A stretch of DNA of 48,274 nucleotides, from NCBI RefSeq assembly GCF_030158565.1, contig NZ_JAOASQ010000042.1:1-48274 (forward strand), read 5' to 3'. Shown here one piece after another: positions 18,393 through 48,274 of this stretch. The notes under the pieces were generated by a model. It was not told the origin of the DNA, ran no database searches, and saw only the letters and a list, made by a program, of their open reading frames with translations. Each line of letters opens with the position of its first letter. Within the stretch, counting starts at the first letter, position 1. A program made the translations under genes and the position numbers. This DNA comes from Limnohabitans sp. (lineage in GTDB: Bacteria > Pseudomonadota > Gammaproteobacteria > Burkholderiales > Burkholderiaceae_C).

Positions 18393-18425
18393 TGGCACTC
18401 GGGAAATCTTAGCCAGTCACCTTCA

Positions 18426-18869
18426 CTAGGTAAACGAAGTGACTTTGACATGCGTGTATTGATCAGACCAGGTGCTCGGAAGGTCAATACAAAAGTCATT
18501 GAAGTTGGTCGTGCATTCCATCTCGTCATTGAGGATCAGTTCGACGATTTCGGGATCTAGCAGGTTGAGTTTCATGACGCGGCTCATGTAACTCGGGTCC
18601 ACATTCTCGCCTACCGAGATTTCCCGCAGGGTCTTGTACTTTCCAGTGTCGAGCATCTTTTGCCAACGTCTGGCCCTTACAAGTGCAGCCTGAAGAATGG
18701 TCAATTCCTCTTTCTCTTTGAAATCAGCGTGGTTGATGGTCTTGGGCAGGAGAACCTGGCTGCGTCCACTGTACTTCCTGATCTTCATGGGAATGGAGAT
18801 CGTGATGGAGCCATCCTGCGCTCGGTAGAACATAGGCTCGTCGGTGCGTTCAACAGTGGTCGGTCTCAT
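18426..18869 (-). CDS. HTH protein associated with the serine recombinase
   Basis: The 147-residue protein starts with a polar region and contains a ParB-like helix-turn-helix near residues 82-115 (LREISVGENVDPSYMSRVMKL), as seen in small proteins encoded next to phage serine recombinases. Its ATG at 18869 overlaps the recombinase stop by four bases, so both are co-translated. It may act as a recombination accessory or directionality factor, but the function is not established from sequence. Confidence 0.7.
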   Translation of the reverse strand: MRPTTVERTDEPMFYRAQDGSITISIPMKIRKYSGRSQVLLPKTINHADFKEKEELTILQAALVRARRWQKMLDTGKYKTLREISVGENVDPSYMSRVMKLNLLDPEIVELILNDEMECTTNFNDFCIDLPSTWSDQYTHVKVTSFT

Positions 18870-20239
18870 ACGCAAACCTTCTCGATTGGTTTTTTGGCAA
18901 CCTCGATGACAAGGTTGGCGATGCCTGATGGATGAAAGGTGATGTCCAGCCGAGTGGGGGATACAACCACTTTCTGAACAATCAAATGCATGATGCGGTG
19001 CTGCTCAATGGGGTAGAGCGCATCCCAAACCCGTTCGACCGTGGCCATCAGATTGGATGTCTGGAATTCGTCCAGGTGTGCAGTGACCGGGTTATTCAGA
19101 TTCCTGAGGGCCTTGAGCACATCCAGGGAAATCTCGCTGGTGCGCAAGATCCGTTTGACCTGTTCCATCACAGCGTTCTCAATCTCGTCCGCAGGCAGCA
19201 TGGGAAGCCCTGAGGTCCTTGACTTGACCTTCTGGTCCTGGATGGACTGGTAGTAGCGATATTGTTTCTGCGTGCCTGGTTTGTTCTTGCCATAGGGGGT
19301 CAAGGCATGACCGTCCGGTGTGAAGATCAGGCCCTTGAGCAACGCCGTCTGCGTTCCCTTGCGTTGCCCCTTTCGGCAGCCGCGAGTCGCACCCTTGAGC
19401 TTGGATTGCGCTGCTTCCCACATCTCCTGGGTGATGATGGCGTTGTGCTCACCTTTGTATTCCTGCCCCTTAAAGCGGACTACCCCGCAGTAAATCGGGT
19501 TGTTGAGCATCTTGTAGAGGTTGCTCTTGTCGATCAATTTTCCCGCACGCTCAACGCCATCCTGGGTCTTCCAGCTCTTGGTGCGCACGCCCGCATCCCT
19601 GAGGTGTTGCAGCAGCATCGTCAGGGAGTTGGAACGGGTGTAGTCGCCAAAAAGCCTGCGCACAATGCACGCCTCGTCCTCGTTGATCACCAGCTTGCGG
19701 TCCACCACGTCGTATCCGAGGGGAGGGATGCCACCCATCCACATGCCTTTGGCCTTGCTGGCGGCGATCTTGTCGCGGATGCGCTCGCCTGTGACTTCAC
19801 GTTCAAATTGGGCAAAGGAGAGCAGGACGTTGAGCATCAGCCGCCCCATGGAGGTGGTTGTGTTGAATTGCTGCGTGACTGAGACAAACGACACCTCATG
19901 GGCGTCGAAAACTTCGACCATTTTGGAAAAGTCAGCCAGGCTGCGGGTCAACCGGTCAATCTTGTAGACCACGACCACATCAATGAGCTTGGCGTGAATG
20001 TCCTGCATCAGGCGTTTGAGGGCAGGGCGCTCCATGTTCCCGCCTGAGTAGGCCGGGTCGTCGTAGTCTGTAGCCACAGGAATCCAGCCCTCATGGCGCT
20101 GGCTTGCAATGTAGGCCTGCCCCGCGTCACGCTGGGCATCAATGGAGTTGTAGTCCTGCTCCAGCCCTTCTTCAGTAGATTTGCGGGTGTACACCGCACA
20201 CCGCACCCTTGGGCGAGAGGCTTCTTCAACACGCGCCAT
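18866..20239 (-). CDS. Large serine recombinase (phage integrase type)
   Basis: This 457-residue recombinase has the resolvase catalytic domain (about 12-160) with the nucleophile Ser21 in YTRKST, YKIDRLTRS and the SFAQFEREVTGERIRDKI helix, followed by a recombinase domain (180-290). In the region that usually forms a zinc ribbon (LxGLlrCGxCG), the Cys residues are absent (LLKGLIFTPDGHAL), as in the DUF2924-associated group. It would insert or excise the element at attachment sites. It starts with ATG at 20239 on the stop of the DUF2924 gene. Confidence 0.9.
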   Translation of the reverse strand: MARVEEASRPRVRCAVYTRKSTEEGLEQDYNSIDAQRDAGQAYIASQRHEGWIPVATDYDDPAYSGGNMERPALKRLMQDIHAKLIDVVVVYKIDRLTRSLADFSKMVEVFDAHEVSFVSVTQQFNTTTSMGRLMLNVLLSFAQFEREVTGERIRDKIAASKAKGMWMGGIPPLGYDVVDRKLVINEDEACIVRRLFGDYTRSNSLTMLLQHLRDAGVRTKSWKTQDGVERAGKLIDKSNLYKMLNNPIYCGVVRFKGQEYKGEHNAIITQEMWEAAQSKLKGATRGCRKGQRKGTQTALLKGLIFTPDGHALTPYGKNKPGTQKQYRYYQSIQDQKVKSRTSGLPMLPADEIENAVMEQVKRILRTSEISLDVLKALRNLNNPVTAHLDEFQTSNLMATVERVWDALYPIEQHRIMHLIVQKVVVSPTRLDITFHPSGIANLVIEVAKKPIEKVCV

Positions 20240-20748
20240 CAACGTCGACCTCCAATGACGGCTTCACTCTTGCGGCTGAGACCAAAAAAGGCTGGTCCAG
20301 ACCACTTTTGGCCGGTGATTTCTTGCGAGACAGCGGTGAGGCTGGTGTAAGGGCGTCCCTCGTATTCAAACGTGCCGTCAGACTGCACATTGACTTCGTA
20401 GCTCTTGCCCTGAAAGTCGCGCTTGAGCCGTGTGCCGGGCACCAGCTTGAAGGGCTCTTTCTTTTTCTGGACCTTGGCCAGGGGCTTGAGACTGGCTGTG
20501 AGTTTCTCGATCCGGGCTTCGTTGCTGGCCAGCAGACTCGGGTTGACCTGGGCGTATTCCAGCTCCTGGATCCGATAGGCCAGGCGACCCTCCAGATAGG
20601 GACGACGCTGCACCGTGGGCGCCTTGCCGTAGAGCTTGTACCAAAGCGCATTGAGCTCTTTGATGTTCAGGGAGGGCAGGTTGGCGATCTGCGCCAGCAC
20701 AGATTGGCTCATGCGATTTTTGGGTGATTTTTGCTTTTCAACGGTCAT
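20239..20748 (-). CDS. DUF2924 domain protein
   Basis: This 169-residue basic protein has the DUF2924 pattern: ANLPSLNIKELNALWYKLYG near residue 22, R-rich YLEGRLAYRIQEL, then PGTRLKRDFQGKSYEVNVQSDGTFEYEGRPYTSLTAVSQEITG with a C-terminal SGPAFFGL. This family nearly always sits directly upstream of serine recombinases in phages and islands, as here, but its role is not known. The stop overlaps the recombinase start. Confidence 0.85.
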   Translation of the reverse strand: MTVEKQKSPKNRMSQSVLAQIANLPSLNIKELNALWYKLYGKAPTVQRRPYLEGRLAYRIQELEYAQVNPSLLASNEARIEKLTASLKPLAKVQKKKEPFKLVPGTRLKRDFQGKSYEVNVQSDGTFEYEGRPYTSLTAVSQEITGQKWSGPAFFGLSRKSEAVIGGRR

Positions 20749-20757
20749 TCGGTTTCC

Positions 20758-21222: not shown

Positions 21223-21810
21223 ATGAGAACACCCAACCGAGATGACGAGCACCTGCAGTCGCTGAGGGACTACTACGCCAGCAACAGGCGCATTCCCAGC
21301 CTTCAGCGCATTGCAGCCCTTTTGGGGTTTTCGTCGCGCTCGGCTGCGGTCAAGCTCATGGGGCGGTTGGCAGACGAGGGGTTTGTTGAGCGAACAGTTG
21401 ACGACGATGCCTGGATTCCAGGCAGTCGCTTTTTTGCACGACCCATGATTGACGCATCGGTGCCCGCAGGCGTGCCGGTGTCGGCCATAGATGTGGGTAG
21501 CCAGCCGCTAGTGTTCGACGAGTACCTGGTCAAAAAGCCCAATGAGACGTTTGTCATTCCCATCAAGGGTGACTCCATGATCGAAGCGGGCATTTTTGAC
21601 GGCGACCTCGCCGTAGTTGAGCGATCAAGCAAGGCCAAGGCCGGTGATTTCGTGATTGCCAATGTCGACAACGAGTTCACTTTGAAAGAGCTCGTGCGGG
21701 AGAGGGGGCAATACGCCCTCAAACCCCACAACCAGAAGTACCCCCTGATTCACCCCCAGGGCAGTCTTCAGGTCATAGGAATTCTTGTGGGTTTGGTCAG
21801 GCGTTACTAG
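21223..21810 (+). CDS. LexA-like S24 repressor of the element
   Basis: This 195-residue protein joins a LexA-type winged HTH (IPSLQRIAALLGFSSRSAAVKLMGRL, about 24-50) to an S24 autoprotease domain. The predicted cleavage bond is Ala82-Gly83, with catalytic Ser118 (KGDSMIEAG) and Lys155 (FTLKEL), very near the E. coli LexA values 84/85, 119 and 156. RecA-stimulated self-cleavage on DNA damage is therefore expected. It is divergent from the recombinase genes, as a prophage SOS-sensitive repressor would be, rather than the host lexA. Confidence 0.85.
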   Translation: MRTPNRDDEHLQSLRDYYASNRRIPSLQRIAALLGFSSRSAAVKLMGRLADEGFVERTVDDDAWIPGSRFFARPMIDASVPAGVPVSAIDVGSQPLVFDEYLVKKPNETFVIPIKGDSMIEAGIFDGDLAVVERSSKAKAGDFVIANVDNEFTLKELVRERGQYALKPHNQKYPLIHPQGSLQVIGILVGLVRRY

Positions 21811-21911: not shown

Positions 21912-23183
21912 ATGCTAGTTTTCAATGACCGCCACTTCTTGCGTCATATCTCGATGCCCACCCTGCGAGAGTTCACGCAACAACACAAAATCAGCCCCAA
22001 GCTGAACATCGACTGGGAGGCCGCAGCCGACACGCTGCATGCCCTTGTCGGCAAGGAGCTTGATCGGCTCGAAGAGTCTCTGGTGCAAGGTGGCCTTGAG
22101 GTTGAGGCGCGCAAAGACCTGGAGCATGATCTCATGCTCTGGCACGATGATTTGAAGCGTGCCCACTCCATGTCCAACGCGCAAGCGGTGCAGGAGTTCC
22201 GCTGCATCTGCGCCGATGATCCGCTGGCGCTGGCCGCGTTCGACAACCGCACCGAGCGCGAGATCGCTCTGTGGATGCTGGCCTTTCGGGACAAGGCATT
22301 CCGTGACGCCGAGCTGCACCTTGCGTTCCAGGCCAAGACCAATGGCAAGTTCTGGAAGAAGCATCTCATTCCTGCCGGGCTCAAGCTCTCCAGGGACCGA
22401 GCGCAACTTGAATCGTTTTGTGAAGAGGTCACCAAGCTCTACAAGAAAGTGGGCGCTGGCAAAAGCAGCCACGTCGAGGTCAGCGAGCGCGCCAAGGACA
22501 ACAGCGTTCAGGTGACCATCTACGTGGAAGGCCCCGTCACCGCGATTGCCCACTTTGAGCAGAGCAACTTCACCCGCGTGACCACGCGAATTGCACTTGA
22601 AACGGCGCTGGTGTACCACCCCACACAAGGCATCGTGGAGTCCATCGTCAGGGGTGGTGCCAAGAACCACGCAGCGGTGCTTCAGTTGTTCGGGGAGCAT
22701 GTGCTGGGGCAGAAGATCGAGCCCGAGGAGATCGAGAAGAAGTCATTCCGTCTGAATGCGCTGCGCGACGGCATGTTTGAGCCTGTTGTGGACTGGTCTG
22801 CCCTTGGCGTAGAGAAGGTGCGCCTGCGCCGTGCCCGCTTCAAGCCCATTGGCAGGGCAGGTGTGGCCGTTCAGGTCGAGGCCACCCCTGAGATGGACAA
22901 GCCCGATGCCATTCAGGAGGCGTTGGCGCTGCTCAAGGTCAGCAGCTACTTTGAGGCCGAATACGCCATGGCCTCGGCGACCTTGATCGTGTACATGAAG
23001 CCCGACGCCAAGGGCAAGCACGCACACTTCAGCTTTGGGGTGCAATCGTCCGGGTCATCGACCATCAAGAACCTCTCCGAGCGCAATCAGGCGATCGCCC
23101 AGTCAGTGCTCAAAGCGCTGGATGTGATCGAGGTGGAAGACGCGCCGGGCGACTTTGAAGCCTTTGAACAGATGGCGGCTTGA
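21912..23183 (+). CDS. Hypothetical protein (423 residues), first of a coupled pair
   Basis: I do not recognise the family. The product is soluble and highly charged; residues 30-90 look helical and residues 160-260 strand-rich (VQVTIYVEGPVTAIAHFEQSNFTRVTTRIALE). No nuclease, ATPase or membrane motif is visible. The start has GGAGG eight bases upstream. The stop TGATG overlaps the next start, so the two proteins are made together. It stands just downstream of the LexA-like repressor. A role in element maintenance or defence is conceivable but unproven. Confidence 0.75.
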   Translation: MLVFNDRHFLRHISMPTLREFTQQHKISPKLNIDWEAAADTLHALVGKELDRLEESLVQGGLEVEARKDLEHDLMLWHDDLKRAHSMSNAQAVQEFRCICADDPLALAAFDNRTEREIALWMLAFRDKAFRDAELHLAFQAKTNGKFWKKHLIPAGLKLSRDRAQLESFCEEVTKLYKKVGAGKSSHVEVSERAKDNSVQVTIYVEGPVTAIAHFEQSNFTRVTTRIALETALVYHPTQGIVESIVRGGAKNHAAVLQLFGEHVLGQKIEPEEIEKKSFRLNALRDGMFEPVVDWSALGVEKVRLRRARFKPIGRAGVAVQVEATPEMDKPDAIQEALALLKVSSYFEAEYAMASATLIVYMKPDAKGKHAHFSFGVQSSGSSTIKNLSERNQAIAQSVLKALDVIEVEDAPGDFEAFEQMAA

Positions 23184-24136
23184 TGAGCCAGGCGCAAATC
23201 AATTCAACCCAGGTCCTGTGCCGCCTGCTCGAAATGGACAAGCCGCAGATCGACGGACAGACCTTGTTTGGCCAGTCCAGTGATGCGGCCACACACCTGA
23301 TCCGGGAGCGAATGTTGGTGCTCGGCAGTTCCAACCAATGGATCAATTGCCCGGAGTGCGGTGTGGAGCTGGCGCGGGTCGTTCGGGACCTGTCCAGCGA
23401 TCAAATCCTGCTCATGTGTCCCGAGTGTGTGGACGTCACGGCGCCCAGGCACTACTGCACCAACCACAAGGTCTCACTGCCCAAGTTGGTCAACAACCTT
23501 GCCTCGGGCTTGGGGCTAGGCAGTGCTGGTCACAAAGTGATTGATCACGAGCAGATCTGGCGACTGGGCACAACGCAGTCGGGCAGGGCCAAGCCGGTGA
23601 CCTGGTATTTCGCGCGCCAGCTCTACAAACCCGAAGTGGCATACAGGCTTCGTGAGCAGATTCGCCTGGAAAAAACCACCGAGTCCAGCGTCGTGCTCAC
23701 CAGCACCGATTTGCCGCTGCCAGCGGCATCACCCATCGAGGGCTTTGATGTTCGCTTTCTGGGCATGACCGCGCGCATCAGTCAGAGCCGGTTCGAGTTC
23801 TTTGATGAGAGCGCGAGCACGGCCACACAGGTCATGGCAGAGGCAACACCTACGACCACCCTGAAGTACGTTGAATCGCAATCCTGTGTCTGGATGGATG
23901 GCGAGCGCTATGAGCTCGAGCCTCGGCAGCGGCTCATCATCATTGCACTGCTGGAGGACCTGGACCACGAGCTCGACAAGGACGCTTTGCAGCGCAAGTG
24001 TGGATCCCAGTCGCAGAGCTTCTCCCCGAGCAAGGAGTTCGAGCGCAACAAGTCGGTCTACAAACGATTCATTCGCTACCTCCGGGACGATGAGCGTTAC
24101 CAATTGCTGATCCCGCTGGAGGATCAGACCCACTGA
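23183..24136 (+). CDS. Hypothetical zinc-ribbon protein, second of the coupled pair
   Basis: This 317-residue protein has a CPEC ... CPEC zinc ribbon at about 53-85, with additional Cys/His (HYCTNHK) behind it. The C-terminal 90 residues (from MDGERYELEPRQRLIIIALLEDL) resemble a winged-helix or transcription-regulator C-terminal domain. Family and function are unknown. The start ATG overlaps the upstream stop by one base, and a terminator follows 44 bp after its stop, closing a two-gene unit. Confidence 0.75.
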   Translation: MSQAQINSTQVLCRLLEMDKPQIDGQTLFGQSSDAATHLIRERMLVLGSSNQWINCPECGVELARVVRDLSSDQILLMCPECVDVTAPRHYCTNHKVSLPKLVNNLASGLGLGSAGHKVIDHEQIWRLGTTQSGRAKPVTWYFARQLYKPEVAYRLREQIRLEKTTESSVVLTSTDLPLPAASPIEGFDVRFLGMTARISQSRFEFFDESASTATQVMAEATPTTTLKYVESQSCVWMDGERYELEPRQRLIIIALLEDLDHELDKDALQRKCGSQSQSFSPSKEFERNKSVYKRFIRYLRDDERYQLLIPLEDQTH

Positions 24137-24179
24137 TTTCCATTGGTTTGCAGTTGCCAATGTTTCACCAGGTTCAGAC

Positions 24180-24200
24180 ACTCGGCTGGCCGAGTTTTTT
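24180..24200 (+). terminator. Terminator closing the left phage-like operon
   Basis: ACTCGGC (24180-24186), TG loop, GCCGAGT (24189-24195) is followed by TTTTT. It is preceded by GGTTCAGAC, and the block GGTTCAGACxC ... TGGCCGxGTTTTTTGCA recurs almost unchanged at 34464-34495 on the other side of the oxygenase operon. Confidence 0.85.
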
Positions 24201-24460
24201 GCAAGCACAATGGGACCGAATATTGAAGCGAGCGGCAGTTACCGACCCTTTGCAGTCCATCACAAACACCAACTCGAAAGTCCGCTCTGGCTAGATCTAA
24301 TTTCCTCGGACTATGAAGATAGTCTCAATTACCAGGGAAATTCACGCCGCGATTAACGTCATAAATTAATTGAACTTGCCGACATCTTTCTGCAAGTAGC
24401 GTAGCTTGAGGAACAACGATTGAAAATCGGTCAACTCGAACTCAATCCAAGTGCTTTTTG
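24201..24460. other. Gene-free junction between phage-like genes and the oxygenase operon
   Basis: Together with the terminator this makes a 320-bp gap without a gene. It contains a degenerate segment (about 24225-24290, CGGCAGTTACCGACCC) that in reverse complement resembles GAGGGTCGG...TTGGCCG at about 34325-34345, and a small hairpin GACTAT-GAAG-ATAGTC (24309-24324) that might serve the minus-strand operon end. Nothing else is recognisable. Confidence 0.5.
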
Positions 24461-25516
24461 CTATTCCAGCTTCCACACCAATACTGTTACTACCGCGCCG
24501 ATATAAACGGTCTCTGTCAACAACATTACCAAAGGCCGCCATCCAAGTTCTAATAGATCTTTGAATGTGGTTTTGACACCTGCGGCAGCAATAGCCATGA
24601 CCAACAAATTGCGAGATACCTCACTGGCGAATGCAGCGCTGCTTACTGTGAAAATTCCAGTGCTTCCGAGCAATACCAGCACAACAAAACCCAACAAAAA
24701 TCCTGGAACGATGGACACTGGTTTGCTGTCAACACTGACATTTTCATGGCGTCGAAAAATTATGGTCAAAACAATGGCGACCGGCATCAGCAGCATGACT
24801 CGAAACAATTTCACGACAGTGGCCACATCGCGTTGCTCTTCTCCCATAAGAGCACCAGCACCAACAACTTGTGCGACATCATGAATCGTCCCTCCCAAAA
24901 CTGTACCCATTCCCGCAGGACTCAATGCCAACCAAGCGAGCATCCAAGGGTAGAGAACCATGGCACAAGTGGACAAAAGCGTCACACCCACAACGGTCAA
25001 CAATGTGAAACGCTCATTGGCTGGCGATTGAGGTAATACCGAAGATATGGCCATGGCAGCCGATGCACCGCAGATCGCCACGGCACCTCCACTCAGAATG
25101 CCGTGTTGTGCAGGCTGTCCCATCAAGCGCGCCAGCAACCATCCCACCAAAATCGTGGAGACCAACGCAAATACAACGACCAAGGCTGTTTGAAGACCCA
25201 GTCCAGTAATTTGTGAGGCAGTAATGCGCATTCCAAGAAGCGCCACCCCCAAACGCAGCAATGTCTTGCTGCAAAACTCGACGCCCGCGCGCATTCCTGG
25301 TTGCTCCATCACGAAATGGAAAGCCAACCCGATTAATAGGGCAAACAACAACTGTGGCCCACCGTAGTGCTCAGACAGAAATGTGGCCGCCATGGTAATC
25401 ACAGCGCACATCAACACTCCAGGCAATCTTGCATGCCACGGAACTAAAAACGCCAGACGCCCCTTCAACAGAACGGGAGAACGAGTTTCGGGAGTGAAAC
25501 GCTTAGATTCAGACAT
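24461..25516 (-). CDS. yeiH: YeiH-family putative sulfate/sulfite exporter
   Basis: This 351-residue membrane protein has about ten hydrophobic segments and the family hallmarks GVALLGMRITASQI near 95, GGAVAICGASAAMAI near 142 and GGTIHDVAQVVGAG near 205 (PF03601). Members next to sulfonate-degrading genes have been proposed to export sulfite or sulfate. The ATG at 25516 was preferred over an upstream TTG. It is the last gene of the oxygenase operon, suggesting that the pathway frees sulfur oxyanions; this is inference. Confidence 0.8.
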   Translation of the reverse strand: MSESKRFTPETRSPVLLKGRLAFLVPWHARLPGVLMCAVITMAATFLSEHYGGPQLLFALLIGLAFHFVMEQPGMRAGVEFCSKTLLRLGVALLGMRITASQITGLGLQTALVVVFALVSTILVGWLLARLMGQPAQHGILSGGAVAICGASAAMAISSVLPQSPANERFTLLTVVGVTLLSTCAMVLYPWMLAWLALSPAGMGTVLGGTIHDVAQVVGAGALMGEEQRDVATVVKLFRVMLLMPVAIVLTIIFRRHENVSVDSKPVSIVPGFLLGFVVLVLLGSTGIFTVSSAAFASEVSRNLLVMAIAAAGVKTTFKDLLELGWRPLVMLLTETVYIGAVVTVLVWKLE

Positions 25517-25558
25517 CAACTTGTTCGTTTGTTGGAATAATTGCAAGCACTTGGAATG

Positions 25559-27068: not shown

Positions 27069-27090
27069 GGCTCAGAAGTCCCGCGTCAGT

Positions 27091-28092: not shown

Positions 28093-28140
28093 GATTTGTC
28101 TCCGGTTAAATGATATTTTTTGGTTGCGAAAGGTAAAGAA

Positions 28141-40812: not shown

Positions 40813-40865
40813 GACCAAAAGCAAACCGAAAACAAACTCAAAAGAATTCACTTTCAGACACACGA

Positions 40866-40971
40866 CTGACGCATGACACAGCTCGACGCTGTTTTCCTAT
40901 TATCGACGTCTCACGCGTACGCGTAATAGAGGGAATATAGAAAACAACGTCGATATGCGTCGGTGCGTCAG
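40866..40971. repeat. Nested palindrome, candidate replication origin or operator
   Basis: Four pairs of arms are nested around one centre: CTGACGCA/TGCGTCAG (40866-40873, 40964-40971), CGACG/CGTCG (40884-40888, 40948-40952), TGTTTTC/GAAAACA (40890-40896, 40940-40946) and CTATTA/TAATAG (40897-40902, 40924-40929). The middle contains the perfect palindrome ACGCGTACGCGT (40913-40924). It fills the gap between primase-helicase and resolvase genes. Confidence 0.8.
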
Positions 40972-40984
40972 AGCAAGGACCACC

Positions 40985-41458
40985 ATGACACTCAAGACGA
41001 TTTTGGCCCTCGATCTGGGCACGACCACGGGATGGGCGCTGCGCGATCAGGCTGCAGCCATCACACACGGCTTTGCCAGCTTCAAGCCCCAGCGCTTTGA
41101 AGGCGGCGGCATGCGCTTTCTGCGCTTCAAGCGCTGGCTCACCGAAATCAAGGCCACAACCGAGCAAGGCATCGACGCCGTGTGCTTCGAAGAGGTGCGC
41201 CGCCACCTCGGGGTAGACGCTGCGCACGTCTACGGCGGTCTCATGGCCACGCTCACCGCCTGGTGCGAGCACCACCAGATCCCGTATGAGGGCGTGCCAG
41301 TGGGCACCATCAAGCGCCACATCAGCGGCAAGGGCAATGCCTCCAAGGACGAGGTAATCCGGGCTGTCGGTGAGCTCGGGTTCCACGTGAGCGATGACAA
41401 CGAGGCCGATGCCATCGCCTTGCTGCACCTGGCCATCCAAAACCACGAGGAGGTGTGA
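40985..41458 (+). CDS. RuvC-like Holliday junction resolvase of phage type
   Basis: This 157-residue RNase H-fold protein begins ILALDLGTTTGW (first acidic residue Asp10), followed by CFEEVRR (Glu near 69) and DDNEADAIAL with the last acidic pair near 140. Phage RuvC-like enzymes cut branched DNA before packaging. The ATG at 40985 lies just after the palindrome; the upstream frame has no support. Confidence 0.82.
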   Translation: MTLKTILALDLGTTTGWALRDQAAAITHGFASFKPQRFEGGGMRFLRFKRWLTEIKATTEQGIDAVCFEEVRRHLGVDAAHVYGGLMATLTAWCEHHQIPYEGVPVGTIKRHISGKGNASKDEVIRAVGELGFHVSDDNEADAIALLHLAIQNHEEV

Positions 41459-41460
41459 GA

Positions 41461-41675
41461 TGAAGATCCCGGCTCCTCGCTACCCGTCTCCGCTGGGCCG
41501 CGCCCAGCCCATCCCGATGGACATCGAACGCACCAAGAGGGACGGCTGGCAAAACAACCACCTGCTCGTCATCTCCTCGAGTGATGCGCGGCTCGATTTT
41601 CTGGAACAACAACTCATCGAGCGCATCGGCAACCGGCTCTATGGGTCAAAAAGCAAAGGGGGAAAAATTGGATGA
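41461..41675 (+). CDS. Small hypothetical phage protein
   Basis: A 71-residue protein begins three bases after the resolvase stop (GTGTGAGATG). It is Pro-rich at the start and has a helical end (DARLDFLEQQLIERIG). No family is recognised. It overlaps the next gene by 35 bp. Confidence 0.6.
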
Positions 41676-42042
41676 ACACACCATCGAGAGCATCGGCGAG
41701 CGTTTTCGGCAGGCCGCCCGCACGGCCTACCGTCTGCCCGCCGTCCGGGTGCAGGGCTACGTCAGTTACTGGCCCGACATCAAGGCCACAGGCACGGAGC
41801 GCAGCGCGGTCGAAGAGCGCCGCTACATCAAATTCCCGCCAACACCCCAGGAGGTCGACGAGATGCTGGAGGTCATGCGCTGGATCCAGTGCCTGGAGGT
41901 GGAGCAGCGAAAACTGGTGTGGATGCGAGCCAGACGCTACGGGTGGCGTGACATTGGCCAGCGCTTTGGCTGCTGCTCACGCACCGCGCAGCGCCACTGG
42001 CAGTACGCCATGCTGCAGGTGATCCACCAGATCACCACGTGA
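41641..42042 (+). CDS. Phage protein with C-terminal HTH (DUF6362-like)
   Basis: This 133-residue product has a C-terminal sigma-like HTH segment (WRDIGQRFGCCSRTAQRHWQYAM) and a conserved-looking QEVDEMLEVMRWIQCLEVEQRKLVWMRA. I recall this as the DUF6362 type in phages, close to late-transcription or DNA-modification genes. The role may be regulation of late genes. An internal start at about 41670 is possible. Confidence 0.7.
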   Translation: MGQKAKGEKLDEHTIESIGERFRQAARTAYRLPAVRVQGYVSYWPDIKATGTERSAVEERRYIKFPPTPQEVDEMLEVMRWIQCLEVEQRKLVWMRARRYGWRDIGQRFGCCSRTAQRHWQYAMLQVIHQITT

Positions 42043-42223
42043 GGCAGGGATGCTGGAGTATTGCCCGGAGCCGTGATTGGCAATTTTGGGCAATATTTCC
42101 AGTGGGTTCAGACGCTTGCTGTCAGAGTGACGGTGATTGCGTAAATTGGCCGAAAAAAGGGTGTCGCATTTCGGCGAGAAAAAAGATAAATTCTCGATAC
42201 CTTGGGAATCAAAGCAACTTGAT

Positions 42224-42439
42224 TCAGCAAAGCACCACAAGGTCCTGTTTCACGAATTCCTCGAGCTTGTCCACATGGATGAAGCCGGTGAGGTCAGCGG
42301 AAACGGTCACAGCCAGGTACCCGTGCTCAGCGGGGCCTGAAACCTCGTAGGTCCCCACGTTCAAGGGGACAAATCCTTCGTCTTTGAAATCCTTGCCCAA
42401 CTTGCGGGCGAGGACGCCTTTCTTTACTTCAATCTTCAT
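42224..42439 (-). CDS. Small hypothetical protein on the minus strand
   Basis: A 71-residue frame beginning MKIEVKKGVLARKLGKDF with balanced charged/hydrophobic pattern looks protein-like, unlike its surroundings. AGGT stands a few bases upstream. It runs against the phage operon and starts 39 bp from the ParB/HNH gene, so the two are divergent. No family is recognised. Later minus-strand small genes (44.4-45.7 kb) may belong to the same accessory class. Confidence 0.5.
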   Translation of the reverse strand: MKIEVKKGVLARKLGKDFKDEGFVPLNVGTYEVSGPAEHGYLAVTVSADLTGFIHVDKLEEFVKQDLVVLC

Positions 42440-42478
42440 CTGACCTGCTTTCGATTGCAGGTCATTGTAGGAACTCGC

Positions 42479-43159
42479 ATGAGCCAAGCCCAGATTCGCC
42501 CTGAAATTCGAATCACGCCTGTGGATAACCTGATTCCCTACGCCCGCAATGCCCGCACCCACAGCGATGAGCAAGTGGCGCAGATTGCGGCTGATTTGTC
42601 TTCCATCGGAGTGAATGAATTCAGGTTTTGTCTTGAGAACGACTGCTATGCCGTAGACCGCAATGGAGACATGTTTCGGGTGTGCCGTGAGCAATACAGT
42701 AAATCAGGTCGATTGATCAGGCGGTATGAGACTTTGAAACTCAAGGGCTCCCTGGATGTTGACGGATACCGCGTTTATCGAATGAGTGTTGACGGCACAA
42801 AAAAGCATGTCAAAGGACATCGGATGGTTATGAGTGCATGGCATGGTCTTGAAGTAGGCAAGGTCGTTAACCATTGCAATGGAAACAAGTCAGACAACAG
42901 ACTTGAAAACCTAGAGTGGGTAACTGTGGCCCAGAACAACGCTCACGCCATCCGGACAGGACTTCTCAATCCACGATTGGGAGGCCGAAAGAACAGAAAA
43001 TTATTCACGACTGATTTCATGTCAATCTACATCCTGCATGTGCATTGCGGATTCTCAAGAGCGAATCTGGCCCGTTCAAACAGAGTTTGTCGTCAGGTCA
43101 TTGATGACGTCATTCAACGTGTGAAAAATGTGCTGGGAGATGTGCATGCAGCAGCTTGA
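42479..43159 (+). CDS. ParB N-terminal fragment fused to an HNH homing endonuclease
   Basis: The first 44 residues (ITPVDNLIPYARNARTHSDE... DLSSIG) are the beginning of a ParB/sulfiredoxin-like domain. At the point where such domains continue with the GFxxP strand, the frame runs into a NUMOD4/HNH-type endonuclease: CYAVDRNGDMFRV near 55, KGHRMVMSAWHG, VVNHCNGNKSDNRLENLEWVT near 140-160. The whole is 226 residues. The next gene starts again with a complete ParB domain. The endonuclease DNA is visibly less GC-rich than its neighbours, suggesting recent invasion. Confidence 0.8.
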   Translation: MSQAQIRPEIRITPVDNLIPYARNARTHSDEQVAQIAADLSSIGVNEFRFCLENDCYAVDRNGDMFRVCREQYSKSGRLIRRYETLKLKGSLDVDGYRVYRMSVDGTKKHVKGHRMVMSAWHGLEVGKVVNHCNGNKSDNRLENLEWVTVAQNNAHAIRTGLLNPRLGGRKNRKLFTTDFMSIYILHVHCGFSRANLARSNRVCRQVIDDVIQRVKNVLGDVHAAA

Positions 43160-44414
43160 GTATTGGCCGATTCAAAGATTGATTGAATACGCACGAAATC
43201 CTCGCAAAAACGACCATGCTGTTGATGCCGTCTCTGCGGCAATTCGCGAGTTTGGATTCCGTGTTCCGATTGTTGCCAAGAGCGATGGCACTGTCATCGA
43301 CGGACATTTGAGACTCAAAGCGGCTAAGAAGCTTGGTCTGGAAACAGTCCCTGTGCTTTTGGGAGATGACATGACCGAAACGCAGATCAAAGCGTTTCGA
43401 CTCAGTGTCAACAAGCTCGCTGAGCTTGCTGGCTGGGACGAAGAGTTGCTGAAACTTGAGCTGACCGATCTGCAGGACGCCGACTTCGACCTGGGCCTTA
43501 TGGGCTTCAGTGACGACGAACTCGACCGACTGATCAATGGAGACGACGGCGGTGGTTTGACCGATGATGACGCAGTCCCAGAGACACCCAAGGAACCTGT
43601 ATCCAGACCTGGTGACCTGTGGATTCTCGGCAACCACCGCCTCCTTTGCGGCGACTCGACCATGCTGTCCGATGTGGAAAAGCTCATGGGCAGCGAGCTG
43701 GCCGACATGGCCTTCACCGATCCGCCCTACAACGTGGACTATGGCAACAACGCCAAGGACAAGATGCGGGGCAAGGACCGGCGCATCCTCAACGACGCCC
43801 TGGGTGATGGCTTTTACCAATTCCTGTACGACGCCTGCGTGAACCTGTTGATGGTCACCAAGGGCGGCTGTTACGTGGCCATGAGCTCCTCGGAGCTGCA
43901 CACCCTGCAAAAGGCCTGGCTGGATGCCGGTGGCAAGTGGTCCACCTTCATCATCTGGTCCAAGAACACCTTCACCCTGGGCCGGGCTGACTACCAGCGC
44001 CAGTACGAACCGATCCTGTACGGCTGGAAGCAAGGCGCTGACCACTTCTGGTGCGGTGACCGGGACCAGTCGGACATTTGGAACTACAACAAGCCCCGGG
44101 TCAACGACCTGCATCCGACCATGAAACCGGTCGAGCTGGTTGAGCGGGCCATCAAGAATTCGTCCAAGAGCCGGGACATCGTGCTGGACCTCTTCGGTGG
44201 TTCGGGCACCACCCTGATTGCCTGCGAGAAGACCGGGCGTCAGGCACGGCTCATGGAACTCGATCCCAAGTTCGTGGATGTGATCGTCAAGCGCTGGGAG
44301 GAGTACACCGGTCTGCAGGCGGTGCGTCAAGAGGATGGCGTGAAGTTCGCCGAGCTGACCACCAGTGCTGGCGATGCACCGGTGCCAGAGGCCCCTGCGG
44401 CGCAGGGCGCCTGA
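43146..44414 (+). CDS. ParB-domain DNA methyltransferase (beta class, N4C/N6A)
   Basis: This 422-residue protein has a ParB-like N-terminal domain (about 3-100, with GTVIDGHLRLKAAKKLG) and a DNA methyltransferase domain. The catalytic DPPYNVDYG comes before the SAM-binding LDLFGGSGTTLIACE, the motif order of the beta class. Such phage fusions methylate adenine or N4-cytosine, likely for protection from host restriction. The ATG at 43146 overlaps the HNH gene. The first third is AT-richer than the rest, as if exchanged together with the HNH segment. Confidence 0.88.
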   Translation: MQQLEYWPIQRLIEYARNPRKNDHAVDAVSAAIREFGFRVPIVAKSDGTVIDGHLRLKAAKKLGLETVPVLLGDDMTETQIKAFRLSVNKLAELAGWDEELLKLELTDLQDADFDLGLMGFSDDELDRLINGDDGGGLTDDDAVPETPKEPVSRPGDLWILGNHRLLCGDSTMLSDVEKLMGSELADMAFTDPPYNVDYGNNAKDKMRGKDRRILNDALGDGFYQFLYDACVNLLMVTKGGCYVAMSSSELHTLQKAWLDAGGKWSTFIIWSKNTFTLGRADYQRQYEPILYGWKQGADHFWCGDRDQSDIWNYNKPRVNDLHPTMKPVELVERAIKNSSKSRDIVLDLFGGSGTTLIACEKTGRQARLMELDPKFVDVIVKRWEEYTGLQAVRQEDGVKFAELTTSAGDAPVPEAPAAQGA

Positions 44415-44416: not shown

Positions 44417-44623
44417 TCAGTTGCCCGGGAAATTCGGGTACAGGTCGCCGCTGGTGATGTCGGCGTTGTAGGTGACCTTGTCAAACTCGCCGCGCTCATC
44501 TGCCAGGTACACGCCGCCCACTGACTGAATGGCCACCCCGTATTTGCGGGTGAGGGCGGTCAGCTCGGTGATGAAGCTGTCGTAGTTGTTTTCGATCTGC
44601 GGTGTGGTGTTGATGGCTGCCAT
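44417..44623 (-). CDS. Small hypothetical protein
   Basis: A 68-residue protein (MAAINTTPQIENNYDSFITEL...) has AGGAGA seven bases upstream, and its stop lies two bases beyond the methyltransferase stop in a tail-to-tail layout. No family is recognised. It is the last gene of a four-gene minus-strand cassette. Confidence 0.6.
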   Translation of the reverse strand: MAAINTTPQIENNYDSFITELTALTRKYGVAIQSVGGVYLADERGEFDKVTYNADITSGDLYPNFPGN

Positions 44624-44648
44624 TTGGATCTCCTGTGTTTTCGACGGT

Positions 44649-45008
44649 TCAGCCCAATCGGGCAACGTACCTGGCGGTATCGCCGCCAGACGGGTCAATG
44701 AAGAGGTAAGGGCGGCCGGGAGCGTGGACCTCCACACACAGTCGGCCATTGCCGATGTAGCCTCCTTTGCCCCTGAGCCAGTCGCGTGACTTGTAGAGGT
44801 TCATCGCAAAGCCGTCGAACTCCTCGGGGGTCATCTCCCGGGTGTCTGAGACATAGACCGTGTAGTCGCCGCAGGCGGCGATTTCCGTGATGTCAGCGGG
44901 CTTGCGGCCGAAGGGCAGCCGGATGCTGAGTTCTTCGACTTCGAGGGCCTTGCCATCAAGTCGGACAGTGATCGGCTTGCGTTCAATGGTGATGGTCATG
45001 GTTTTCAT
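44649..45008 (-). CDS. Hypothetical protein
   Basis: This 119-residue soluble protein begins MKTMTITIERKPITVRLDG, strand-rich at first, with a central YTVYVSDTREMTPEEFDGF. GAGG stands six bases before the start. No family is recognised. It is placed between the DUF3489 protein and the small protein, all in one direction. Confidence 0.62.
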   Translation of the reverse strand: MKTMTITIERKPITVRLDGKALEVEELSIRLPFGRKPADITEIAACGDYTVYVSDTREMTPEEFDGFAMNLYKSRDWLRGKGGYIGNGRLCVEVHAPGRPYLFIDPSGGDTARYVARLG

Positions 45009-45015
45009 GTGTGCC

Positions 45016-45456
45016 TCAGACAATGCGGTACTTGCGATCCTGGCCATCGGTCTTTTCTGAGACGATGTTCAGGCCCAGTTTCTTTTTCAGAGCGCCGGCC
45101 ATTGCACCCCTGACGGTGTGCTGCAACCAGCCAGTGGCCTGAACCATCTCGGCAAGGCTCACCCCATCAGGGCGCTTGAGCAACTCGATCAGGGTGGCCT
45201 GTTTGGTGCCATCGCGTTGCTTGGGTGGTTGCTGCGGTGCCAAACCGATCGCTTCAAGGCCTGCGGTGGAAATCACGAACTGCGTGTTGCCCTCGGGCGT
45301 CTTGTTGTGCGGGGCAATCAGTCCTGCGTTGCCCAGGGCGGTGAGCACCTTGATGAGTGCGCCGCCTTTGAGGTTGGCCGGGAAGTCGGTCAACAGTTTT
45401 TGAGGATGCTTGGCCGCTGCTTCGAGCAGGCTGCGCTGGGTATCCGTGAGTTTCAT
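45016..45456 (-). CDS. DUF3489 domain protein
   Basis: This 146-residue protein has two winged-helix-like halves: an N-terminal LTDTQRSLLEAAAKHPQKLL part and the DUF3489 domain (GTKQATLIELLKRPDGVSLAEMVQATGWLQHTVRGAMAGALKKKLGLNIVSEKTDGQDRKYRI, positions about 85-146). DUF3489 proteins are common in elements that also carry DUF2924 and serine recombinases, which supports a link to the genes at 18.4-21 kb. The function is unknown; DNA binding is likely. Confidence 0.82.
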   Translation of the reverse strand: MKLTDTQRSLLEAAAKHPQKLLTDFPANLKGGALIKVLTALGNAGLIAPHNKTPEGNTQFVISTAGLEAIGLAPQQPPKQRDGTKQATLIELLKRPDGVSLAEMVQATGWLQHTVRGAMAGALKKKLGLNIVSEKTDGQDRKYRIV

Positions 45457-45776: not shown

Positions 45777-46160
45777 ATGCCAAGAAGTGCGCCTACGCCT
45801 TGCAGATATCCGGGATGTATGGCTGTGCTCTCAACGCCTGGCTACTGCGCAGCCCACCGCTCGCTGGTTCATCGGGATTACGGGCGCGCAAGGCGTAGTT
45901 TTGATACCGAGGTCGGGTTCTATCAATCGGCAAATTGGCGGCGCTTGCGTGCCAGCTTCCTGCGCTTGCATCCCCTTTGCCGGGTGTGTGCTGCCCGGGA
46001 GCTAACAGTTGCCGCAACGGTGGTTGACCACGTTTTGCCAATCAAGGACGGTGGTGCGCGCCTGGATGCGGCCAATCTGCAAGCACTGTGTGTGCCTTGC
46101 CATAACCGCAAGACGGCTGCGGAGACCTGGGGGCGGAGTTGTGGACGGGAGGGGGGTTAA
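45777..46160 (+). CDS. Phage HNH endonuclease next to terminase
   Basis: This 127-residue HNH nuclease has two Cys pairs (CRYPGC, CRVCAAREL and CVPCHNRKT) and the HNH core VVDHVLPIKDGGARLDAANLQALCVPCHN. HNH proteins directly upstream of terminase genes help cos-site cleavage in HK97-type phages. It starts the rightward packaging module. Confidence 0.85.
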   Translation: MPRSAPTPCRYPGCMAVLSTPGYCAAHRSLVHRDYGRARRSFDTEVGFYQSANWRRLRASFLRLHPLCRVCAARELTVAATVVDHVLPIKDGGARLDAANLQALCVPCHNRKTAAETWGRSCGREGG

Positions 46161-46260
46161 ATCTCTGTGATTGGTACCCAAAGATGCGTGCGCTTGCCCA
46201 AATTTTTGTGACCGCGAAATTCACGACCCCCTATCGTCCAGGTGTTGGGCCTTAAAAACC

Positions 46261-46605
46261 ATGAACGCCAATAACCCACGGCATTCCAGCAATGCAGAGC
46301 TTGATCTGGCGCGCAATGCTGTCACGGATGAAAACTGGAGGGCGGTGCGAGTGAGCGACGAGGAGTTGTCACGCATGGCGCCATCCGTTGAAGACGTCCT
46401 GGGCATGACAGATGCCGACTGGATCCGGCTGCGCTTGCCTCAGAGTGTCCTCATCCGGTTGAGAGTCGATTTGACTCGACGCTTGGGGGTGAAGGCGCAG
46501 GATTTGATGTGGTTATGCCGCGCAATAGAAAGAAATCAGTATGGCCACACGGGGACGAAAACCGACGCCAATCGAACTCAAGCTGCTCCAAGGCAATCCA
46601 GGTAA
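46261..46605 (+). CDS. Hypothetical protein before terminase small subunit
   Basis: This 114-residue protein has a polar start and a helical middle (LPQSVLIRLRVDLTRRLGVKAQDLMWLCRAI). No family is recognised. The end overlaps the terminase small-subunit gene by 65 bp, so either start or end may be misjudged, but the frame is consistent and the codons look normal. Confidence 0.5.
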   Translation: MNANNPRHSSNAELDLARNAVTDENWRAVRVSDEELSRMAPSVEDVLGMTDADWIRLRLPQSVLIRLRVDLTRRLGVKAQDLMWLCRAIERNQYGHTGTKTDANRTQAAPRQSR

Positions 46606-47044
46606 GCGGGCAATCAATCCCAGAGCACAGGTGTTGCAGCAACAAGAGGCACTGCCGGGCGATGCAACGCCGGATATGTTGCTCGAGGAGGCCAAGCCCT
46701 ATTGGGATCACGCGATCGCCCATGCCCCACGCGGGCTACTGCGCAAGCTCGATATGTACCTGTTGGCTGCGTGGTGTAACGCGGCATATCGCTATGAGTT
46801 CAACATGCGGCTGGCTGCCAAATCAGATGTCATCCCAGTGCGTGGTGCCAAGCTCGCGGGTCTTGATCCCAAAGATCGCCCCGTGATGCACAACCCGTTT
46901 TCAACGGCGGCACGGGCGTATCTCAAGGACATGACCATGTTGGCAGCAGAGTTGGGATTTACACCGAGTTCCCGCGCTCGCCTGGGTGCGGCAGAGATCG
47001 CTGCGCCGGGTGTTGACGACCCCTGGGAACAAATTGCTGGGTGA
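46541..47044 (+). CDS. terS: Phage terminase small subunit, P27 family
   Basis: This 167-residue protein begins MATRGRKPTPIELKLLQGNPGKR, the hallmark start of P27-family small terminases, followed by a helical body and a C-terminal GFTPSSRARLG. It recognises the packaging site and loads the large subunit. The VapC stop is immediately next to its own stop. Confidence 0.9.
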   Translation: MATRGRKPTPIELKLLQGNPGKRAINPRAQVLQQQEALPGDATPDMLLEEAKPYWDHAIAHAPRGLLRKLDMYLLAAWCNAAYRYEFNMRLAAKSDVIPVRGAKLAGLDPKDRPVMHNPFSTAARAYLKDMTMLAAELGFTPSSRARLGAAEIAAPGVDDPWEQIAG

Positions 47045-47455
47045 TCAGTGGTTGTTGACCCAGTTCTCGACGACCAGTCCGGTATGGGCACGGAAGTCGG
47101 CCTCGTTGTTGGTCACCAGTGTCACGCCCAAGGACATCGCATGTGCGGCAATGAGTTTGTCCAGTGCGTCCTTGTTGCGCTCGCGGCTGGCAGCGCGCAG
47201 CGGTCCGTATGCCCGCGCAGCCCGGGCTTCGAAGGGTGCAACAACGATGTCTTCAAGCAGGCTGTCCAGGAGCACCTGATTGTGAGCCTGGGTTTCTCCT
47301 GAACGGGCGACCCCGAACTCCAACTCGGCCAGGGTGATGGCGGAGATGACCACGTCGCCCACAAAGCATTCTGCAAAGCGTGCCCGCACCTGAGGGGGCT
47401 GGTGCTTCATCAGGTAAATGCAGATGTTGGTGTCCAGCATGTATTTGGGCTTCAT
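47045..47455 (-). CDS. vapC: VapC-type PIN-domain ribonuclease toxin
   Basis: This 136-residue PIN toxin shows the four acidic residues Asp8 (MLDTN), Glu44 (LAELEFG), Asp99 (LDKLIAAHA) and Asp120 (TNNEADF). VapC enzymes cleave tRNA or other RNA until bound by VapB. It overlaps vapB by four bases. It stands in opposite direction between the two terminase genes, an unusual location. Confidence 0.9.
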   Translation of the reverse strand: MKPKYMLDTNICIYLMKHQPPQVRARFAECFVGDVVISAITLAELEFGVARSGETQAHNQVLLDSLLEDIVVAPFEARAARAYGPLRAASRERNKDALDKLIAAHAMSLGVTLVTNNEADFRAHTGLVVENWVNNH

Positions 47456-47688
47456 AGGGCCTCGCGCTCGCCTTCGATGTTGAGGCCTCGGCCTTCGCTC
47501 ATGAAATCAGGGGAGAACTGGGCCAGCTTGCCCAGTACATCACCCATGCGGCGGCGTGCGGGACGGATCCGCAACTCATCGCCCTGGCGTTCGATCACCA
47601 GTTCGATATCCCAGCTGCTGTAGGCCAGTTCGGCCGGAATGCGCACGGCCTGGGAATTGCCGTTTTTGAAAAGTTTGGTGCTGGTCAT
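47452..47688 (-). CDS. vapB: VapB-type antitoxin (AbrB/SpoVT fold)
   Basis: This 78-residue antitoxin begins MTSTKLFKNGNSQAVRIPAELA, the typical swapped-hairpin AbrB domain, followed by a C-terminal toxin-binding part. The ATG at 47688 gives the normal start; a longer frame to 47727 reads through the operator. It neutralises VapC and should repress the operon together with it. Confidence 0.88.
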   Translation of the reverse strand: MTSTKLFKNGNSQAVRIPAELAYSSWDIELVIERQGDELRIRPARRRMGDVLGKLAQFSPDFMSEGRGLNIEGEREAL

Positions 47689-47709
47689 GCCGTACCTCAC
47701 AGGAACAAT

Positions 47710-47769
47710 ATGGATGTACGTGTACATCTTAGTCTATGGCATGGGATTTGTAAATACATGGATGTACGT
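47710..47769. promoter_or_regulatory. Probable VapBC operator overlapping the terminase large-subunit start
   Basis: ATGTAC-GT-GTACAT (47714-47727) is an inverted repeat 26 bp before the vapB start. The 12-mer ATGGATGTACGT occurs at 47710-47721 and again at 47758-47769, and the second copy contains the start codon of the large terminase. Binding of VapBC to both could couple toxin-antitoxin control with terminase expression. Confidence 0.65.
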
Positions 47770-48274
47770 CAAGGATCGTATGCAACCGTGGCCAAGCGTT
47801 ATGCCGAGCAAGTGGTGGCCGGAAGAATTCTGACTTGCAAGTGGGTGAAGGCCGCTTGCCAGCGCCAGCTCGATGATCTGAAGCGCTTCAAGGGCAAAAA
47901 CAGCCCCTACCGCTTCAACCCCAAGCTGGCGGACCGGTATGGACGGGTTTTCCGCCCGGCGGACAACCTGTGTGCGCTGATTGAACAGCTGCCGCACGTC
48001 AAAGGTCCTCTGGCCGGGGAACCCATCACGCTGGAGCCATGGCAGGTTTTCATCCTCACCACGGTGTTCGGCTGGGTCAAGCCAGATGGGAAACGGCGAT
48101 TTCGGCGCTCCTACATTGAGGTGCCGCGCGGCAATGCCAAATCCACCTTGTCATCGGCTGTGGCTCTCTACATGCTGGCCGCTGACCGGGAGGGCGGCGC
48201 CGAGGTGTATTCACTGGCCACCACCCGTGACCAGGCCCGCATCGTGTTCGGGGACGCGCAGACCATGGCGCGCC
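47758..48274 (+). CDS. terL: Phage terminase large subunit (5' part, runs off the window)
   Basis: The visible 172 residues begin MDVRQGSYATVAKRYAEQVV, followed by GRILTCKWVKAACQRQLDDL and the ATPase part with Walker A-like VPRGNAKST near residue 120 and YSLATTRDQARIVFGDA. This is the motor ATPase and nuclease that packages DNA. An in-frame ATG at 47710 would give 16 more residues (also MDVR); the shorter form was chosen because the upstream part is operator sequence. The gene continues beyond the window. Confidence 0.87.
   Translation, partial: MDVRQGSYATVAKRYAEQVVAGRILTCKWVKAACQRQLDDLKRFKGKNSPYRFNPKLADRYGRVFRPADNLCALIEQLPHVKGPLAGEPITLEPWQVFILTTVFGWVKPDGKRRFRRSYIEVPRGNAKSTLSSAVALYMLAADREGGAEVYSLATTRDQARIVFGDAQTMAR

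Follow-up and report, generated by a model that had tools for sequence, protein, structure and literature searches.

A ten-kilobase operon, predicted to act on a small organosulfonate, as probable cargo within a Limnohabitans prophage

The window analyzed here, which is the whole of contig C42 (NZ_JAOASQ010000042.1, 48,274 bases) from a Limnohabitans sp. metagenome-assembled genome of 3.05 Mb in 75 contigs (92% complete), contains a prophage in two modules, and between these modules lies an operon of eleven uninterrupted minus-strand open reading frames (ORFs) at 24461-34108. Read along the minus strand, the gene order is IclR, oxygenase alpha subunit, oxygenase beta subunit, DmpF, DmpG, reductase, Rieske ferredoxin, substrate-binding protein, ATPase, permease, and YeiH-type transporter. 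An earlier note on this DNA had described the left-hand phage genes, the minus-strand operon with its IclR regulator, and the right-hand phage genes, and the Pfam and PHROGs matches locate all three where that note had put them.

The first operon gene encodes an IclR-family regulator (33212-34108, minus strand, as are all eleven genes; Pfam), and upstream of it is a perfect palindrome with 13-nt arms (34140-34169) that is predicted to be an operator. A 38-nt stretch upstream of the IclR gene in Polaromonas L131 is 84% like the palindrome region of the window. The palindrome was rejected as an exact operator common to the clusters, because seven of nine other clusters have no arms of at least 8 nt and the palindromes of L096 and L102 are unrelated to it. 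The MsmA-like Rieske oxygenase alpha subunit (31949-33169) contains a CxH-X17-CxxH motif, whose ligands C92, H94, C112, and H115 are invariant in 23 aligned rows, and its 2-His-1-carboxylate iron-site residues H215, H219, and D348 are conserved in 62/62 rows, the roles of all of these residues being ones that we assume; position 212 is Glu in 36/58 of the X17/X19 rows (Asp in 22) and in 4/4 of the X26 rows. The beta subunit (31474-31929) scores 27.5 bits against a cut-off of 27. It is followed by a DmpF-type acylating acetaldehyde dehydrogenase (30599-31477; TIGR03215, 393 bits, over the cut-off of 282) and a DmpG-type 4-hydroxy-2-oxovalerate aldolase (29579-30589; TIGR03217, 380 bits, over the cut-off of 286), of which the former aligns over its length with the solved enzyme 4lrs and the latter end to end with 1nvm; the identities of the catalytic residues in these alignments are presumed. 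The 2Fe-2S/FAD reductase (28510-29529) is BenC-like, although under the cut-off, with an uncertain start in a frame open to 29826, and the Rieske ferredoxin (Pfam) is at 28141-28503. The predicted transporter of the ATP-binding cassette (ABC) type consists of an NMT1/SsuA-type substrate-binding protein (27091-28092; TIGR01728, 92.1 bits, under the cut-off of 163.5), an ATPase (26304-27068) whose best models are the SaoA, taurine, nitrate, and aliphatic-sulfonate ATPases, all under their cut-offs, and a permease of predicted SsuC/TauC type (25559-26437; Pfam). The last gene encodes a YeiH-type transporter (24461-25546; PF03601, 219 bits; TIGR00698, 130.6 bits, under the cut-off of 232.6), which is predicted to export sulfite or sulfate and which we take to be linked to TauZ.

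On the left of the operon the prophage encodes, on the minus strand, a recombinase small-subunit-like protein (phrog_14161, 18426-18875; PHROGs, in the position of AcaML1 gp2), a large serine recombinase or phage integrase (phrog_95, 18866-20242; Pfam, PHROGs), and a DUF2924 protein (20239-20748; Pfam), and on the plus strand a LexA-like S24 repressor (21223-21810; Pfam, PHROGs), the phage protein phrog_37634 without an assigned function (21912-23183; PHROGs), and finally a phage gene without an assigned function (23180-24136), which is the last gene before the cargo and which adjoins the AlpA-like gene in relatives. On the right, the first early gene is that AlpA-like HTH_17 gene (34647-34871, plus strand; Pfam), followed by an early/replication module (34875-44414, plus strand) of phrog_2480, AAA_24, phrog_2300, DUF6511, PD-(D/E)XK, D5_N primase-helicase, DUF6362, HNH, and methylase genes, three minus-strand ORFs (44417-45456) that include DUF3489 at 45016-45456 (Pfam), and a plus-strand segment (45777-48274) with an HNH gene, the small terminase (46541-47044), and the large terminase (47710-48274). 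No integrase was found among the right-hand ORFs scanned, as the earlier note had said of this part, and Rfam gave no matches at the gathering score.

That the two modules are parts of one prophage, as that note had supposed, is borne out by related elements. In a single record (L014, L019, and L057), one contig carries left-hand genes (recombinase and DUF2924) together with the early module and DUF3489: L019 runs in order from the recombinase (in two frames) through DUF2924, LexA, phrog_37634, and the homolog of the 23180-24136 gene to the AlpA-like gene, phrog_2480, and AAA_24 to the methylase, and in L014, DUF3489 and HNH come next, protein comparison having detected none of the operon genes. 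The same operon-free order is present in the family and genus genomes G229, G015, G348, G359, and G324 and in one of two G374 elements, and IMG/VR scans with genes from both halves converge on the same contigs. For the two operon-flanking genes, the 23180-24136 gene and the AlpA-like gene, the earlier note had proposed a check for direct adjacency in related prophages, and homologs of both were detected in 11 distinct elements. In ten of these the two genes are 227-896 bp apart, compared with 10,511 bp in the window, and there are no operon genes in the stretches compared of the 11 elements, some of which are short (2.2 kb for L147, 5-6 kb for L011-L013); L011 and L012 are 99.3% alike and have only 231/318 residues of the left flanking gene. 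The exception, L156, has a 27% match to the left flanking gene that lies beyond the recombinase, which is an argument against a universal order and not for an insert there. At the DNA level, the window-homologous sequence of L011, L012, L013, and L014 skips from ~24202 to 34457. In the window the operon separates two genes that are neighbors in relatives, with the 23180-24136 gene on its left and the AlpA-like gene on its right. The halves hold complementary genes, and the window alone would also be compatible with two separate prophages that have a host segment between them, but the adjacency of the flanking genes in 10/11 elements rules against this, and the oxygenase is in none of the other 89 genus genomes searched, so that we consider such an arrangement barely credible. 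Of the two findings that the earlier note had named as refuting its view, neither turned up: nothing points to an attR ahead of 24.4 kb, and relatives have one recombinase, on the left, for the whole element.

Of the other elements with the AAA_24 gene that were compared at length, L079, L080, L082-L086, L152, and L154 have neither the 23180-24136 gene nor operon genes, and L155 ends before the site; further matches are known only as 3.8-kb loci. The prophage AAA_24 gene is found in 8/90 genus genomes, 56 of the 90 being of high quality, and in 21/299 family genomes, and the oxygenase is found in 1/90 and 10/299, respectively, with this genome counted in every case.

The edges of the cargo are set by comparison. 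A 40-nt terminator-like repeat, a hairpin with a T run, is present on the plus strand in a left copy (24164-24203) and a right copy (34457-34496), which are 85% alike, and five empty relatives examined have a single copy between the flanking genes; collinearity assigns the left copy to the 23180-24136 gene and the right copy to the AlpA side. The insert of ~10.1 kb is placed at 24204-34337, its left edge from L011-L014 and its right edge from L004 and L007, whose phage DNA is 95% identical to that of the window. The sequence at 34338-34456 is common to the window, L007, and L004 (where it is interrupted by an insertion sequence, IS), and because L004 and L007 diverge farther left, the operon proper would join at ~34337/34338. 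The placement of the operon between the modules in the earlier note stands, and its right boundary of 34.5 kb does not. Apparently the lineage already had something at the insertion spot, and L004 and L007 end before revealing its content. In L004 (190-1370) a transposase gene, which we label IS5-like, lies inside the cargo-edge sequence with CTAG on either side.

Two further candidate readings were rejected. The right edge of the cargo is not taken for a dispersed host repeat because the 345 bases have no long second copy in the genome itself or in 39 other relatives, and transposition is set aside because there is no transposase among the eleven cargo ORFs and the IS5-like transposase of L004 sits within the edge sequence.

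The composition of the operon differs from that of its phage surroundings. G+C content at third codon positions (GC3) is 0.51-0.61 in the 11 cargo genes and 0.66-0.77 in the six left phage genes, and of the right phage genes 14/19 are above 0.7 and the other five at 0.51-0.62. Codon-usage distance is 7.8 and 8.2 between the operon and the two phage parts, 6.7 between the operon and the host, and 2.8 between the phage parts. A join of operon and phage DNA from different organisms, made during assembly or binning, would give the same contrast, and the source is indeed a metagenome-assembled genome of many contigs, L004 and L007 cease to match the window left of 34338, and no second contig has either join. 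However, both joins fall in a single intergenic spot between two conserved phage genes that are both left whole, and the operon is a complete conserved gene set. A repeat-driven assembly error at the hairpins is also unlikely because the copies have at most 10 nt in an exact run in common, and we regard such an artifact as quite improbable.

From these comparisons, the operon is very probably cargo inside a prophage, and our confidence is held at that level because no independent contig spans a junction. For the whole explanation, a prophage with an inserted 10.1-kb operon that is predicted to use a small organosulfonate, we would put the probability at about 0.58, and several observations pull against its first half. 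L004 and L007 carry other sequence left of 34338; 24-nt patterns spanning either operon-phage join, right or left, occur in no viral contigs; and oxygenase scans of viral contigs, one kind made with a single protein and one with an alignment, found none that bears the operon. The ten adjacent elements amount to about five lineages, with L011-L013 being 96-99% alike and L147, L151, and L153 96-98% alike. Host genes have a GC3 of 0.56-0.84, and some are as low as the cargo (0.56-0.57). Over the region, promoter-like sites number 5 against 6.3 in shuffled sequence and terminator-like sites 16 against 12.3, both close to background. The contig stops inside the large terminase and the remainder is absent from the assembly; the sole match in this genome to the terminase of a relative is that piece. 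Finally, the capsid might be too small for some 10 kb of added DNA, although phage AcaML1 is 59.4 kb.

Some of these points would suit a prophage that is dead or domesticated, in which case the operon landed in a resident prophage, moves with the chromosome only, and is never in particles: no operon-bearing phage contig was found, the right end is beyond the contig, and the extra DNA is a packaging burden that the size of AcaML1 makes less telling. The prophage ORFs of the window, however, align over most or all of their length with L014/L019, the recombinase is whole in the window, and 34338-34456 is also in other contigs of the same lineage, and we find a dead prophage unlikely. For the part that the window lacks, relative L157 (in genome G385) has portal, protease, major head, head-tail, tape-measure, and minor tail genes after the large terminase.

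Turning to what the operon does, the earlier note had called it an aromatic trait, and this we do not uphold, as there is no ring-cleavage family among the eleven operon ORFs, and the oxygenase relatives, the MsmA-signature neighbors, the sulfonate-type transporter, and the sulfite-exporter families all indicate sulfonates. In a protein search that gave 250 oxygenase relatives, of which 120 were listed, 22 of the 120 are named methanesulfonate monooxygenase by JGI. Scanning genome contigs for the oxygenase gave 48 loci, 14 with an identity of at least 55%, among which L093 and L100 are near-copies, as are L099 and L101, and 34 below, some of them on short contigs. DmpF and DmpG are present in 11/14 of the closer loci compared with 0/34 of the others, and MsmA-signature genes with a 26-residue Rieske spacer (X26) adjoin the 17-residue (X17) cluster in 4/14 compared with 0/34. 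In these four loci, L097, L099, and L101 (Roseovarius) and L135 (Rhodoferax), the 26-spacer set has its own beta subunit, reductase, and ferredoxin and lies upstream of genes for a tripartite ATP-independent periplasmic (TRAP) transporter and a 17-spacer oxygenase-DmpF-DmpG set; no second reductase was seen in them, with L097 and L101 ending soon after. The L135 locus (3165-14659) has the 26-spacer MsmA-signature set, the TRAP genes, and the 17-spacer set in tandem, with a TauE exporter at 14726-15451. The window oxygenase is 41-42% identical to the X26 proteins of the four loci. A maximum-likelihood tree of 62 rows, flagged for long branches that include the 26-spacer rows, pairs the window oxygenase with P0003 (100/100), and a nine-row group (95/87) unites the window with the 17-spacer rows of the same loci. 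Sulfite-exporter families also occur near sister clusters, PF03601 beside L099 and TauE (PF01925) beside L135.

The chances that the substrate is a sulfonate are in our judgment about even, because of evidence that runs the other way. The Rieske spacer is 17 in the window protein and in all 120 listed relatives, not 26; in part of its text, PMC4433239 gives the 26-residue spacer for proven methanesulfonate degraders and says that short-spacer proteins bear the methanesulfonate monooxygenase (MSAMO) name without such proof. Given its spacer of 17, we do not class the window oxygenase as an MSAMO, and the NCBI names for its relatives are generic Rieske or ring-hydroxylating oxygenase. Sulfonate-transport models all score under their cut-offs for the operon transporter, the enrichment of exporter genes in the neighborhood of close relatives is weak (3/14 compared with 4/34, tblastn), and simple desulfonation leaves the retention of DmpG unexplained, DmpG being the best conserved operon protein in its 11 loci (68-78%). 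It is conceivable, then, that the same prophage cargo has an oxygenase whose substrate is a small molecule other than a sulfonate, such as a short carboxylate, a betaine, or a lactone, to give a 4-hydroxy-2-oxoacid that DmpG and DmpF would turn into pyruvate and acyl-CoA. The conservation of DmpG and its end-to-end alignment with 1nvm would fit such a route, as would a spacer of 17, which is the ordinary Rieske length, and sister-cluster transporters that vary between ABC and TRAP types. The tandem with X26 MsmA-signature genes in four loci, the YeiH/TauE-type exporters in several clusters, and the SsuABC-like transporter in the window argue against it, and we consider it doubtful.

If the organosulfonate reading is correct, the SsuABC-like transporter would import a small organosulfonate, and the alpha-beta oxygenase, together with the reductase and Rieske ferredoxin, might hydroxylate the carbon adjoining the sulfonate group, with sulfite released and a short aldehyde left. 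The YeiH-type protein could then export sulfite or sulfate, and DmpF would convert the aldehyde, which would be acetaldehyde if the substrate is ethanesulfonate-like, into acyl-CoA, with DmpG as its partner, possibly cleaving a longer intermediate. Our best guess for the substrate is a short organosulfonate, and ethanesulfonate is the simplest candidate because acetaldehyde would result, the chemistry here being predicted from the gene set. The IclR protein may sense the substrate or a product at the palindrome. Because the operon is opposite to the early genes and between plus-strand terminator-like hairpins, it might be expressed from a quiet prophage with lysogeny control untouched.

The metabolic genes of phages usually number one or a few and support the metabolism of the host. 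A whole regulated operon for uptake, oxidation, and disposal at a defined prophage site allows a direct test of whether lysogeny can open up a new nutrient, and if phage particles carry the operon it would be a virus-borne feeding trait. The finding also indicates an uncharacterized MsmA-like oxygenase branch, coupled to acyl-CoA formation, on chromosomes, a conjugative plasmid, and a prophage. More tentatively, and with odds that we place at about one in three in its favor, a temperate phage may deliver a complete, self-regulated pathway for C2-sulfonates of the ethanesulfonate type with a new short-spacer MsmA-like branch that releases sulfite and passes acetaldehyde on to DmpF-DmpG, so that infection makes a sulfonate eater; the prophage would then be a third vehicle for a pathway that is also on conjugative plasmids and chromosomes.

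The prophage has further features of its own. A PIN toxin/MazE-type antitoxin pair is encoded at 47045-47727, between the small and large terminase genes. The HNH, homing-endonuclease-like gene at 42455-43159 has a low GC3 (0.51), and 42592-43426 is not alignable to L004, L009, or L014, which makes this region a likely second insertion. Three TGAGTA motifs upstream of the AlpA-like gene (34519-34546), unchanged or TGAGGA in relatives, might be an early operator, though this is a guess. In L019 DUF2924 and the LexA-like gene are separated by an AbiEi/AbiEii-like pair (6344-7892), a second cargo site, and genes that we label SRAP-like, S24, excinuclease-like, and UmuC-like lie left of the recombinase (1-3315), on either the host or the phage side.

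Host chromosome occupies 1-17521, which matches genus genomes, although 1-6 kb was hardly compared with the genus. The LysR gene at 16586-17521 is the rightmost gene common to the window and genus genomes, with further host genes to its left present in L071-L078; DNA of 14400-20300 is matched in 60/60 sampled genus genomes, the long core matches stopping at 17455-17523. Host core is over by 17523 and phage genes start at 18426, so attL is expected in the predicted stretch 17522-18425; exact attL and attR sequences were not located in the window. Adjoining the presumed attL is an HU-like gene (18067-18348; Pfam), uncertain as to the host or phage side, with close relatives in many genus genomes, on contig C2 of the same genome, and on the phage contig L010. 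Directly left of the prophage, a host cluster (6217-16535) has a second Rieske oxygenase (15222-16535), a cupin, a fumarylacetoacetate-hydrolase-family gene, a glutathione S-transferase, a reductase, and a branched-chain-type ABC transporter, parts of which are widespread in the genus; it looks like a native aromatic pathway, which we label gentisate-type.

The window begins with CCACCA and a hairpin that resemble the end of the transfer-messenger RNA (tmRNA) gene of L011, and DNA at 1-219 is alike in the two, so the first bases of the window resemble the ssrA (tmRNA gene) 3' end with its terminator, and the contig seems to break at this end, a reported phage integration site, 18 kb from the window recombinase. 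In L011 (1049-2740), the tmRNA gene is followed by DNA like window 1-219 and then by a 5'-truncated homolog of the 23180-24136 gene, and by this arrangement L011 is taken to be a left-truncated relative of the window phage. In L150, from the same-genus genome G324, the prophage has a tmRNA gene on its recombinase side at a distance of ~3 kb. A search of the window for the ssrA end gave no matches, and no tmRNA scored above the cut-off in the genome, and since no ssrA end was found in the window, either its phage integrated elsewhere or this region underwent rearrangement.

Among known systems, the closest in phage organization is AcaML1 (JX507079), a temperate Acidithiobacillus phage of 59.4 kb with small and large recombinase subunits, of which gp2, annotated 'site specific recombinase small subunit', is placed like window 18426-18875, a DUF2924-like gp4, an AlpA-like gp9, and, in the same order, phrog_2480, AAA_24, a D5 primase (62.6%), and a DUF3489 homolog. 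It differs in its acidophile host, in having no metabolic operon in the 22 kb examined and other genes between DUF2924 and AlpA, and in its attB, given as srrA in part of PMC3826726, whereas no ssrA end was found near the window recombinase. The msmABCD/msmEFGH operons share the alpha subunit, beta subunit, ferredoxin, and reductase and an adjoining ABC-type transporter (for which the sulfonate models are under cut-off in the window), but their oxygenase spacer is 26 and not 17, and the window operon adds DmpF-DmpG. The conjugative plasmid pPBL-H3_B2-1 of Hydrogenophaga sp. PBL-H3 (NZ_CP044976) has IclR, oxygenase alpha and beta, acetaldehyde dehydrogenase, DmpG, and a 'putative sulfate exporter' gene, but it has a TRAP and not an ABC transporter, it is a plasmid and not a prophage, and its oxygenase is 61% identical. 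Among 72,556 plasmid records, 935 have an oxygenase relative, two of them at 60-80%, and these two are duplicates of a single Hydrogenophaga plasmid.

Phages are known to carry MsmA-like genes, but the searches made here turned up no complete, regulated operon of this type within a prophage: of 50,697 phage records, the oxygenase matches 11, the best being Puniceispirillum phage HMO-2011 (33.8%), and DmpG matches seven, the best being a Salmonella record (42.8%), with none at 60% in either case. A literature search of limited reach gave nothing on ethanesulfonate or on phage-encoded Rieske or cargo genes. Gp61 of HMO-2011 is a phage 'methanesulfonate monooxygenase', an msmA-like gene already in print (in parts of PMC4433239 and PMC4928673) and said in part of PMC4433239 to lack the Rieske motif, but it is a lone gene in the 7 kb examined. 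Records of Acinetobacter 'phage MD-2021a', which account for 8/11 of the phage records matched, have antA/benA-type Rieske oxygenase genes, though at 23-30% identity, and with lengths of up to 207 kb they may be bacterial contigs. Finally, the cargo resembles phage morons and auxiliary metabolic genes, for which terminators and composition are the marks named in part of PMC5567305: it is an accessory cassette at one site, absent from the same site in related phages, unlike adjacent phage genes in composition, and perhaps also set apart by the terminator-like hairpins at its two ends, which are conserved in relatives. It departs from them in content, in that they hold one or a few genes and the window holds a whole regulated 11-gene operon for uptake and catabolism.

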